Assembly (NCBI GenBank): GCA_021775895.1
Contig: JAJFGX010000028.1
Coordinates: 1 to 39,073 of the forward strand
Length of the DNA: 39,073 nt
Reading direction: 5' to 3'
Origin: Alphaproteobacteria bacterium
GTDB taxonomy: Bacteria > Pseudomonadota > Alphaproteobacteria > Micavibrionales > CSBR16-224
Positions 31,268-34,600 of the stretch are shown here, one piece after another. The translations under genes were made by a program, and so were the position numbers. Position 1 is the first letter of the stretch. Each line of letters begins with the position of its first letter. The notes beneath the pieces were generated by a model. The model saw only the letters and a list, made by a program, of their open reading frames with translations. It was not told the DNA's origin and ran no database searches.

Positions 31268-31625
31268 AACTAAAGCAATTAATATCTATGGTATTAAAAA
31301 CTGTGACACCATGAAGAAAGCTTTCAAATGGCTAGATAAACACAATATTATATATAAGTTTCATGACTATAAAAAAGAACCTATTGATATAAATATTATT
31401 ACCATGGCATTTAAGCAACAAGGTATAGAGAACACTATTAATCGCCGTGGTACAACATGGCGAAAACTACCTGATAATGTAAAAGTGGAAATCAATGAAG
31501 AAAAAGCCCTCAAAATAATTATAGAGAACCCTTCAATTGTTAAACGCCCCTTACTTGTTTATGAAGGCAATATAGTGCTTGGCTTCAAAGATGATGTTTA
31601 TAGCAAGATATTTAAGCATGAGTAA
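31260..31625 (+). CDS. ArsC/Spx (YffB-like) family protein
   Basis: IYGIKNCDTMKKAFKWLDKHNIIYKFHDYKKEPID...INRRGTTWRKLPD...NPSIVKRPLLVYEG; ATGA-type overlap with the upstream TPR gene. Confidence 0.85.
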   Translation: MSKTKAINIYGIKNCDTMKKAFKWLDKHNIIYKFHDYKKEPIDINIITMAFKQQGIENTINRRGTTWRKLPDNVKVEINEEKALKIIIENPSIVKRPLLVYEGNIVLGFKDDVYSKIFKHE

Positions 31626-32406
31626 CGATTTATATGGCATAGATATCAAGCAATCAATGCCAGAGTCCTTTAGGACAGACCATATAATATGGGATAAATA
31701 TATTTCTAGTATTTGGCTAAGTATTTTTAAATTCTGCAATATTCAAAAAAATGATTCAATAATAGAAATAGGGCCTGGGAATTCAATTAAAATTGGCTAC
31801 GCTCTATCGCAACTGAATTTTTGTGGAACACTATATATAATTGATGCCTTGCCTGAGGTAATAGATACACTAAAACCAAAATATGAAGAACTATTGCCTA
31901 ATGCTAAAATTATTTGGCTTGATAAACCAGTTATAGAAGCTATAAAAACACTACCAAAACATATAGATTATATCCTCGCTAACCATGTACTAGACGATAT
32001 GCTTATTTATGCGGCAAAACATAGCGATGCCCTTACTTGGTCTAAATCATATACTCACATTCCATCTAATGATCTGCAAGAATCTTGGCAGGAAATATCT
32101 AAAGATATTAATGAATTAAAACAAGCTCAATCTATGGTTAGCAAAGAAATAATAAACTTAATAAATCAAATTAATCCAACATCAATTATTCTAAATCAAT
32201 ACCCAAGTGCTACTCTAAATGACCATGGTATGATATCGTTGAATAATGCCGCAATTGATATATTAAATATGATAAAAGATGAAGCAGATCAAATAGAACA
32301 AGCAGAAGTGCAAAATATACTCAATCTGCACCCTCACTACAATAATCACCATATTGGACAACATGTCCTAAATGCAAAGTATTGGACGATATGCAAGAAA
32401 ATATAA
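31618..32406 (+). CDS. class I SAM-dependent methyltransferase, uncharacterised
   Basis: Motif I IIEIGPGNS, acidic strand end IIDALPEV, ILANHVLDDM; ATG at 31618 overlaps the ArsC-like stop. Confidence 0.65.
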   Translation: MSNDLYGIDIKQSMPESFRTDHIIWDKYISSIWLSIFKFCNIQKNDSIIEIGPGNSIKIGYALSQLNFCGTLYIIDALPEVIDTLKPKYEELLPNAKIIWLDKPVIEAIKTLPKHIDYILANHVLDDMLIYAAKHSDALTWSKSYTHIPSNDLQESWQEISKDINELKQAQSMVSKEIINLINQINPTSIILNQYPSATLNDHGMISLNNAAIDILNMIKDEADQIEQAEVQNILNLHPHYNNHHIGQHVLNAKYWTICKKI

Positions 32407-34298
32407 ATAAAATTATGCACTCTGTGCCTGATATTACTACAAGGTGGGATAAAACTATGTTTTGTACGACCCCACTATACAAATCAAAACAACGTCATAT
32501 TCCACTTTATATTAATCAAGAGCTGTTTTATAAGCTATTCGAAATTAAAGAAGAAATAAGCTTCCTAAAAATGGCAAAATTGCTAGAAGAGGTTTTTAGC
32601 ACCACGATTGAGCCAGAAGCTGCGTTGGGCGAGCCTATAGGAACTGCCTATATTGACTACCAAGCTGACCCTTTAGACTTATCATTATCTGGCAATCTTG
32701 GCTCTGGCAGAGCTTACTATATTGGTAAGTACTTTAATATTAAAGGCGAGAAAACTCCTTTGGCTATATCGACAAAGAAACAATATTCAGATGGCTACCT
32801 AGAAATAGAGCGAGCTATTTGGGAAGCTGTTATTAGTAATTCTCTACAAACATCAATCAGCACTGGTCTAAATAAAGTGCTGGCAATTTTTAACCTCCAA
32901 GAACTTTGTGAAGTCTCTTGGCGTGATGAACCTGTAAAACGTGGGAAAATTATTAGAGTTGATGAGGCAGGAGAGCTTGATAGAACCACTCATTATTTTT
33001 ATACAAGAAAGCCACTCAGACAAAAAGAACTGGAATATTGTGCAAAAAGCTATGGTGTTTTAGAAGCTGATAAATTTATGGAGAGAATTACTCATGGTAA
33101 TTGGTCACCAGGTAATATTTCAGTCAAAGGACATTTAATTGATTTTGATACTGTGGGTGCGGTCAAAGGTCGTGGACCTTGTTATAGCTCTACTAGATGG
33201 CATCATGAAAATCGCTTTGGATTTGAGCATATGGGGCAATTAAAAGTTTTAGAGGCTTTAACAGCTGATAAAGAAATAAATCACGATTCTGCTAATTTTC
33301 TTGAATTATCTGAACAGCTAGAAAAAGCCAGACAACGGCAAATTGCTCATAAATTTATTGAGTTTATGGGCTTTGATAAGATAGAGGCACTCTATACAAA
33401 ATATAAAAGTGAAATTGATAAAATATCTGCTTTATTTATAGAGTTATCTCAGAAGAATTATTTTCAATCAGGAAAATCCTCAACCAGAGATTTGCATGCG
33501 TCTCTATTGCATGTCTATGATTTCTCCGCTTTATTTCGTGTTTACCCAACTATGAAGAAACAAGGTAAATTCAATGAAAAAGATGCTTTGGCTATTTTAA
33601 TTAATAGTAATCTTTTGGGTAATAGATTTCCTGAAATAAAAGAAGAACTTTCAGACATCGCACAAGAGCATTTAGATAAGGTTTATGAAGTGATTGATGA
33701 TTGCTTTGTAAAATCAACAATACAGCTGAATATGCTGAATATTGCAGCTCTACATTTTATTAAAGAATACGATTTATTATTTGAACAAATCATAGCTGAA
33801 CAAAATATTGATATAAATGATGTGGAAGAAAGAGCCTATATAATCAATGAAGACAGAATTTATTTACTCCCGTATTTTACAATTTCATATGATATAGCAA
33901 TGAGTGTTAGTAGTCAGTCCACAGAATGCACTCAGCAAAAAATTGAAACTCTAATCAAAGCCAATAAGCGAGTTACAAATAAAAACCATATAACCGACAT
34001 ACGCCTCTATGATAAAGGTTATACTTATAAAGTATTGAATGGAAAAGGACAATTTCAGCTCTGTTTTTCTACTTTTACTAAAGAAGGGCAAAAGCAAAAT
34101 TGGTTCAAAGAAGCCGTTAAACTGAGCTTTGACGACAAAGAATATTCAATGTCACTACAAAAATTATTCGGAGAGACTATATTAATGTCTGATTTAATCG
34201 ATATGAATGACATTTTAACCAACTACAACAGAGAAACTTCTTTACAGAACAAACGAATCATGATATATACTCATAAAGAGCATATAGGGTTAAGTTAA
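32391..34298 (+). CDS. divergent SelO/YdiU-like pseudokinase (putative protein AMPylase)
   Basis: Ordered SelO-like motifs: GNLGSGRAYYIGK, FNIKGEKTP (cf. LKGAGxTP), SDGYLEIERAIWEAVISNSL (cf. DGRAVLRSSIREFLxSEAM), KIIRVDEAGELDRTTHYFYTR (cf. RVAxSxIRFGHFEYF), HGNWSPGNISVKGHLIDFDTVG (cf. [20 protein letters not shown]). ORF track uses TTG at 32382; ATG at 32391 is an alternative. Confidence 0.65.
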   Translation: MQENINKIMHSVPDITTRWDKTMFCTTPLYKSKQRHIPLYINQELFYKLFEIKEEISFLKMAKLLEEVFSTTIEPEAALGEPIGTAYIDYQADPLDLSLSGNLGSGRAYYIGKYFNIKGEKTPLAISTKKQYSDGYLEIERAIWEAVISNSLQTSISTGLNKVLAIFNLQELCEVSWRDEPVKRGKIIRVDEAGELDRTTHYFYTRKPLRQKELEYCAKSYGVLEADKFMERITHGNWSPGNISVKGHLIDFDTVGAVKGRGPCYSSTRWHHENRFGFEHMGQLKVLEALTADKEINHDSANFLELSEQLEKARQRQIAHKFIEFMGFDKIEALYTKYKSEIDKISALFIELSQKNYFQSGKSSTRDLHASLLHVYDFSALFRVYPTMKKQGKFNEKDALAILINSNLLGNRFPEIKEELSDIAQEHLDKVYEVIDDCFVKSTIQLNMLNIAALHFIKEYDLLFEQIIAEQNIDINDVEERAYIINEDRIYLLPYFTISYDIAMSVSSQSTECTQQKIETLIKANKRVTNKNHITDIRLYDKGYTYKVLNGKGQFQLCFSTFTKEGQKQNWFKEAVKLSFDDKEYSMSLQKLFGETILMSDLIDMNDILTNYNRETSLQNKRIMIYTHKEHIGLS

Positions 34299-34309
34299 GG
34301 AGTGATGCA

Positions 34310-34600
34310 ATGAAAGATTTTAATGAGCTGGTTAATAGTGAAATAGATAAGGCCGTTAATGATAGCCTTAGTGGTATCCAAAGCCCCATTTTGAAGAATG
34401 CGATTAAAGACACTATACGTGAGGCTGTTATTAAGCAAATGACCGAAGATATGTCAGACACTGTGCGTAGTGCTGTTTCTGACGCTATCGACAACCTGTC
34501 TGATGATCTATCAGGTGCAAAAAATAATGTCTTAAAAAGAAACTTCAGGACTTCTTCAAGCAGTTACGGTGGTAAAAGCAGTAGCTATGGTGGAAAATAA
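34310..34600 (+). CDS. 96-aa protein with helical N-terminal region and C-terminal (SSSYGGK)2 tail; candidate substrate/precursor
   Basis: SD TAAGGAG at 34296-34302; 11-nt gap from the SelO-like stop; protein ends RTSSSSYGGKSSSYGGK*. Confidence 0.75.
   Translation: MKDFNELVNSEIDKAVNDSLSGIQSPILKNAIKDTIREAVIKQMTEDMSDTVRSAVSDAIDNLSDDLSGAKNNVLKRNFRTSSSSYGGKSSSYGGK
34556..34597 (+). repeat. two 21-bp units encoding identical SSSYGGK heptapeptides
   Basis: tcaagcagttacggtggtaaa / agcagtagctatggtggaaaa: same peptide, 5 of 7 codons differ synonymously. Confidence 0.95.

Follow-up and report, generated by a model that had tools for sequence, protein, structure and literature searches.

A methyltransferase, a diverged SelO relative and a repeat-tailed small protein form a conserved gene unit in alphaproteobacteria, probably a protein-modification cassette

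The stretch of DNA analysed here, referred to as the window, comprises the 39,073 nucleotides of contig JAJFGX010000028.1 from an alphaproteobacterium of the order Micavibrionales. It contains three neighbouring genes that encode a methyltransferase (MT1), a protein with a SelO-like pseudokinase fold and a small protein ending in a repeat, termed the tail protein (Table 1). The tight same-strand coupling of these genes proposed in the first-pass annotation was borne out by the sequence, as the MT1 stop codon is located inside the SelO-like reading frame (16-nt overlap) and a gap of only 11 nt, with the sequence TAAGGAG ahead of the tail-protein gene, follows the SelO-like stop codon. MT1 itself overlaps an upstream ArsC-like reading frame by 8 nt. 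Searches against Pfam and NCBIfam assigned none of the three genes to a family with confidence, and the same databases identified the flanking genes as ordinary ones encoding ArsC-like, TPR, DinG-type helicase and redoxin proteins. Elsewhere in the window, a run of genes resembling a type IV pilus or MSHA-like system (prepilin-like, PilT/PilB-like ATPases, secretin-like and PilC-like) was recognised by eye from the translations on the minus strand at 5803-25942.

Table 1. Features of the three-gene unit in the window
Feature	Position	Strand	Basis
MT1 methyltransferase, 262 aa	31618-32406	+	Open reading frame; ATG at 31618, stop codon at 32404-32406
SelO-like pseudokinase-fold protein, 635 aa	32391-34298	+	Open reading frame; ATG at 32391, stop codon ends at 34298
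Tail protein, 96 aa	34310-34600	+	Open reading frame with TAAGGAG Shine-Dalgarno sequence
Two SSSYGGK repeats, the second one C-terminal	34556-34597	+	Repeat comparison; G[GS]K end kept in four of four proteins

The functional connection suggested for the three genes implied that they should occur together, and all three were found side by side in four of four genomes. Besides the window genome (G000), the unit is carried by three alphaproteobacterial MAGs, in which MT1, the SelO-like gene and the tail-protein gene are arranged in the identical order (locus L007 of genome G029, L008 of G004 and L009 of G142, the last being JALHRI010000009.1). The sampling comprised approximately 1,000 genomes in total along with phage, plasmid and viral collections. 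An initial search detected the SelO-like gene in two further genomes among 55 relatives, and an alignment search detected it in 3 of the 142 genomes of the order; alignment searches of 385 genomes of the class, 131 relatives of G142 and 399 genomes of the phylum provided no additional copy. The G142 locus was recovered by an alignment scan of a genome contig collection that yielded three loci, and a query of the same collection with a single protein gave no match. The gene was absent from the viral contigs, plasmids and phages searched. Within the 142 genomes of the order, homologs of MT1 were present in exactly the three genomes that carry the SelO-like gene.

In the three orthologous loci, the SelO-like proteins share 39-44% identity with the window protein and the MT1 proteins 33-42%, and the tail proteins share 31-34% in two genomes and 19% in G142, so that the kinship of the G142 tail protein rests mainly on its position and its C-terminus. 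Since the gene order and the tight coupling have been kept in four genomes at an enzyme identity of only 33-44%, the unit is maintained by selection. The trio is a recurrent conserved unit and more than a chance neighbourhood. Two additional weak matches to the tail-protein profile, in genomes G074 and G123, were rejected, as they correspond to the tail of an AccD-type protein and to an unrelated protein.

The SelO-like identity of the middle gene, recognised in the first-pass annotation, was upheld by profile comparison. With hhalign, a profile of the four SelO-like proteins aligned with a profile of 16 canonical SelO proteins with a score of 48.3 (probability 71%, E 4e-5 for a single comparison), whereas the best of 100 column-shuffled alignments reached 26.2 and the reversed alignment 21.5; an earlier profile comparison with three SelO proteins agreed with this result. 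The match spans residues ~35-258, and the C-terminal ~375 residues have no known relative. Conventional searches did not reveal this relationship: the window protein had no match to PF02696 at E<=1, PF02696 likewise gave no match in genomes G000, G004 and G029, and searches of Pfam, NCBIfam and PDB sequences with this protein returned no SelO match. An AlphaFold2 model of the protein was poor (pLDDT 45). The profile evidence supports the view that the product of the middle gene is a genuine but very remote homolog of SelO that retains most of the nucleotide site.

This view was examined further with respect to the residues that contact the nucleotide in the SelO protein of P. syringae, in which Lys113, Glu136, Arg176 and Arg183 are located at the gamma-phosphate, while Asn253 and Asp262 bind the metal and Asp262, the DFG aspartate, also acts as base (PMC8097203). 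The counterparts of K113, E136, R176, N253 and D262 are K118, E145, R189, N242 and D251, all of which are invariant in the four proteins; the P. syringae numbers were transferred by inter-motif spacing, and K118 was assigned by the motif LKGSG/IKGEK at a position where hhalign left a gap. SelO R183 falls into an alignment gap, with R198 as a candidate counterpart at most. Additionally, the motifs GSGRA, NIKGEK, SDG and IDFDT are invariant in the four SelO-like proteins. The catalytic loop reads HG[NTGA]WS[PA]GN in all four proteins versus HGV[ML]NTDN in SelO, such that the aspartate of the NTDN motif, invariant in 16 of 16 SelO proteins, is replaced by glycine in four of four. This replacement means that AMP transfer has possibly been lost or changed, and activity should not be assumed. 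Because the role of the catalytic base is assigned to the equivalent of D262 (PMC8097203), which is conserved here, the interpretation as a dead enzyme is downgraded. The C-terminal cysteine or selenocysteine is absent from all four proteins, which end in IGLS, QSVK, QEYT and RIEL.

For MT1, an AlphaFold2 model with a pLDDT of 82 showed a Rossmann methyltransferase fold, and comparison with the PDB retrieved methyltransferases at E 7e-5 and probability 1.00 with modest TM-scores. As the best matches are diverse methyltransferases with only 10-15% identity, the substrate of MT1 is not readable from the fold. The glycine-rich SAM loop E-[IV]-x-P-G-x-S-x-K is conserved among the orthologs, and judged from the modelled fold MT1 is a class I SAM-dependent methyltransferase of a family that has no Pfam or NCBIfam model. 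A role in anti-phage defence was considered and rejected, as the PADLOC models yielded nothing beyond weak matches, of mad2 to MT1 and of ZorA to the tail protein.

The tail protein of the window is composed of an acidic, probably helical head of ~70 residues (pI 4.2) and a basic tail rich in serine, glycine and lysine (pI 10.7). The same architecture applies to all four proteins, with heads of pI 4.2-5.3 and cysteine-free tails of pI 10.7-12.0. The C-terminal (SSSYGGK)2 repeat described in the first-pass annotation was confirmed at the protein level: both copies are identical in protein sequence and differ at 7 of 21 nucleotides, all of them synonymous. This purely synonymous divergence indicates that the repeat is kept at the protein level and is not a fresh duplication. 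The strict heptad and its tyrosine are restricted to the window; common to all tail proteins is the shorter motif G[GS]K, usually with a serine just before it. Its copy number varies, amounting to two in the window, six in G029, four in G004 and two in G142, where shuffling of the tails predicts 0.25, 1.53, 0.36 and 0.15 copies, respectively (p <= 0.013 for every tail). All four proteins end in G[GS]K, and a six-frame scan of the loci examined revealed no other reading frame of 40-250 codons with this ending. Accordingly, the earlier idea of a Ser/Tyr-rich target core was retained in part: the serine near G[GS]K recurs and the tyrosine is not conserved, while the lysine, mostly kept as well, recurs in addition. 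Gly/Lys/Ser-rich tails are not specific to the cassette, since the AccD-type protein of locus L060 (G074:C27) carries a long low-complexity C-terminal extension with SGGK.

The head and the variable tail, encoded beside two enzymes in four of four genomes, may correspond to the leader and core of a RiPP precursor. The label 'RiPP-like' given in the first-pass annotation is nevertheless no more than putative, as neither a protease nor a transporter nor a leader-cleavage motif was seen; in the ORF lists and Pfam/NCBIfam assignments of the immediate neighbours scanned (window, L007, L008 and L009), no protease, exporter or known RiPP class enzyme was present.

A new result of the present analysis is that a biosynthetic operon is present in all four cassette genomes. 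It encodes an MDR dehydrogenase, an AsnB-like protein and an NRPS-like A-PCP-reductase, accompanied in three genomes by a NadR-like protein. The operon directly adjoins the cassette in two of the four genomes. In G029, the cassette is followed by the genes for MDR, AsnB-like protein, a further methyltransferase and an A-PCP-reductase of 981 aa, while the NadR-like gene is located at its opposite end. In G142, MT1 is abutted by a divergent run that encodes MDR, AsnB, HAD, A-PCP-reductase and NadR-like proteins. Orthologs of the MDR protein (41-45% identity) far above the next matches also exist in the window genome, where the operon is located on another contig (L021; G000:C36, 602-7203), and in G004, where it is likewise found on another contig (G004:C18) that ends within the A-PCP-reductase gene, so that NadR is not seen. 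Within the order, the MDR gene was detected in 15 of 142 genomes, including all three with the cassette (3/3 versus 15/142; hypergeometric p = 0.001, with relatedness ignored); among the 131 relatives of G142 it was detected in two, one being G142 itself. The SelO-like gene is missing from the remaining 12 MDR-bearing genomes of the order, which mostly contain the same operon where the contig permits, often along with a NadR-type kinase domain and an oxygenase of the PhyH-like type. The cassette is therefore not needed for the pathway. The link to a biosynthetic operon makes a role in modification or biosynthesis more likely.

Several observations concern the surroundings of this operon. Its order-wide form encodes an MDR protein, an AsnB-like protein, a methyltransferase, a PhyH-like oxygenase, an A-PCP-thioester reductase, which in some cases forms a fusion with a kinase domain of the NadR type, and a NadR-like nucleotidyltransferase (L021 602-7203, L010 5214-11735, L023 7062-11613, L037, L039-L042 and L044-L046), and this operon is apparently undescribed. 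In genomes G140, G040 and G142 (L045 14112-17721; L046 14842-18472; L009 8516-12418 with L024 2029-7075), the vicinity of the operon or the cassette contains genes of the NAD-salvage type (NAMPT/NAPRT, PRPP synthase, NAD synthase), which suggests a link to NAD or a dinucleotide. A SelO-type NADase was considered in view of the NadR and NAD-salvage genes nearby and was rejected, since NAD hydrolysis by SelO reportedly depends on the C-terminal Sec/Cys (commentary, PMC13391479), which is missing here. Near the cassette of G004, a LuxI autoinducer synthase and a LuxR regulator are encoded (L008 2452-3945). Such LuxI/LuxR pairs often accompany secondary metabolism. Moreover, a small secreted-looking cysteine-containing protein followed by a DUF692-type-like protein is encoded beside the MDR operon (L042 10816-12928, L043 3248-4791), and by eye this arrangement resembles a bufferin-type pair.

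Comparison with known systems yielded only partial likenesses. Canonical SelO transfers AMP to Ser, Thr or Tyr (PMC8097203, PMC6858067), and the proteins described here share with SelO/YdiU (PF02696) a homologous N-lobe and catalytic loop and five ligand equivalents in four of four cases. They differ from it in escaping the Pfam model, in carrying Gly at the NTDN aspartate, in lacking a C-terminal Cys/Sec, in an unrelated C-terminal part of ~375 residues, and in the grouping of the gene with those of a methyltransferase and a tail protein. The pseudokinase SidJ, for which an acyl-adenylate on a glutamate carboxylate has been proposed (PMC6858067), likewise employs a kinase fold for adenylyl chemistry on a protein, which for the SelO-like protein is a prediction; no sequence match between the two was seen, and their partners differ. 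Systems with RiPP or carrier peptides resemble the cassette in combining a small two-part protein with adjacent modifying enzymes, here in genomes that also contain an operon of the NRPS/AsnB type, but no known RiPP class enzyme, protease or transporter was seen among the scanned neighbours of the cassette, its tail contains no cysteine, and no conserved cleavage site is present. Examples of such systems are the PEARL and LysW pathways. ApbE flavin transferases attach a nucleotide-linked group to a Ser or Thr that lies within a short motif, and some proteins are modified in this way at more than one site; this comparison refers to the mode of action only, as their fold is unrelated to that of the SelO-like protein. 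A search of the open-licence literature, which does not extend to many journals, revealed no paper that places a relative of SelO within a biosynthetic cassette.

The explanation favoured here, tentatively and with somewhat less than even confidence, is that the three genes constitute a protein-modification cassette serving or diversifying a small-molecule pathway, in which the SelO-like enzyme would nucleotidylate the tail. It is preferred because the co-inheritance of a SelO-type nucleotide site, a methyltransferase and repeated C-terminal motifs fits the relation of enzymes to their substrate best. The acidic head would dock the tail protein on the SelO-like enzyme and MT1, and the tail would thread into the active site of the SelO-like protein. 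There it would receive either the adenylyl group of ATP or a nucleotide-linked group provided by the NadR/A-PCP-reductase operon. The acceptor would most likely be the serine beside G[GS]K, the number of motifs would determine that of modified sites, and MT1 would then methylate the tail (at lysine or at the C-terminus) or the attached group. Counted in favour of this reading were the conserved unit, the SelO homology, the G[GS]K enrichment, the co-occurrence with the MDR gene, the operon adjacency and the LuxI/LuxR genes of G004. Counted against it were the loss of the NTDN aspartate, the missing clear counterpart of SelO R183, the restriction to four known genomes, the Gly/Lys/Ser-rich tails elsewhere in the order, the 12 MDR genomes without the cassette and the location of the window operon on another contig. 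That the SelO-like enzyme would install a nucleotide-linked small molecule made by the operon on the repeated Ser/G[GS]K sites, which would amount to a new ribosomal-peptide or protein-tail pathway, is considered quite unlikely.

Other roles can be assigned to the tail protein. It may be a regulatory or localising subunit with a basic nucleic-acid-binding or membrane-binding tail, with the SelO-like protein and MT1 acting elsewhere, for example on one of the operon's enzymes or on its carrier domain. The tail pI of 10.7-12, the low-complexity Ser/Gly/Lys composition and the similar tails on unrelated proteins, such as the AccD-type protein of L060, are in line with this reading, but the exact C-terminal motif in four of four proteins and the synonymous-only divergence of the repeat suggest a recognised sequence over bulk charge, and the subunit role is regarded as rather unlikely. 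It is unlikely, too, that the tail protein serves as a carrier or scaffold, in analogy to amino-group carrier proteins and PEARL scaffold peptides, on which a small molecule would be built by A-PCP-reductase, AsnB and MDR, either at the C-terminal carboxylate or at the lysine amines of G[GS]K, and later released, with the SelO-like protein forming an acyl-adenylate. The C-terminal G[GS]K in four of four proteins and the AsnB-like and NRPS-like enzymes adjoining the cassette in two genomes speak for such a carrier; the loss of the NTDN aspartate would moreover be less important for a carboxylate nucleophile, and SidJ offers a precedent with the proposed transfer of AMP to a glutamate carboxylate (PMC6858067). 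Several internal G[GS]K copies would be superfluous in a C-terminal carrier, however, no release protease was seen, and 12 genomes of the order contain the MDR gene and no detectable tail protein.

Two further explanations dispense with SelO-like catalysis or with the cassette altogether. The SelO-like protein may be a catalytically dead scaffold, with MT1 as the sole enzyme methylating the tail, as would be consistent with the loss of the catalytic-loop aspartate in all four proteins; since the equivalents of the Lys, Glu, Arg, Asn and DFG-Asp residues and the surrounding motifs are invariant at 39-44% identity, a degree of conservation that a dead fold would not usually show, this seems very unlikely. 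The three genes might also be unrelated and adjacent by accident, or the small reading frame might be spurious, which would accord with the small number of known genomes (four) and with the 19% identity between the small proteins of G142 and the window, but the order is kept in four of four genomes across several genera, the junctions are overlapping or close and the repeat has diverged only synonymously, so that a chance arrangement is highly improbable.

SelO enzymes are widespread, and their dedicated substrates and roles in pathways are poorly known. The genomes described here provide a diverged SelO relative with an obvious candidate substrate next door in every genome that carries the SelO-like gene, together with a methyltransferase. 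As the candidate substrate is encoded alongside, the question of SelO substrates becomes directly testable by co-expression. The trio is probably an undescribed protein-modification cassette, as far as the gene and protein sequences indicate. The operon encoding A-PCP-reductase, AsnB and NadR in turn represents a pathway that is apparently undescribed in the literature searched, and it could tie pseudokinase chemistry to natural-product biosynthesis.
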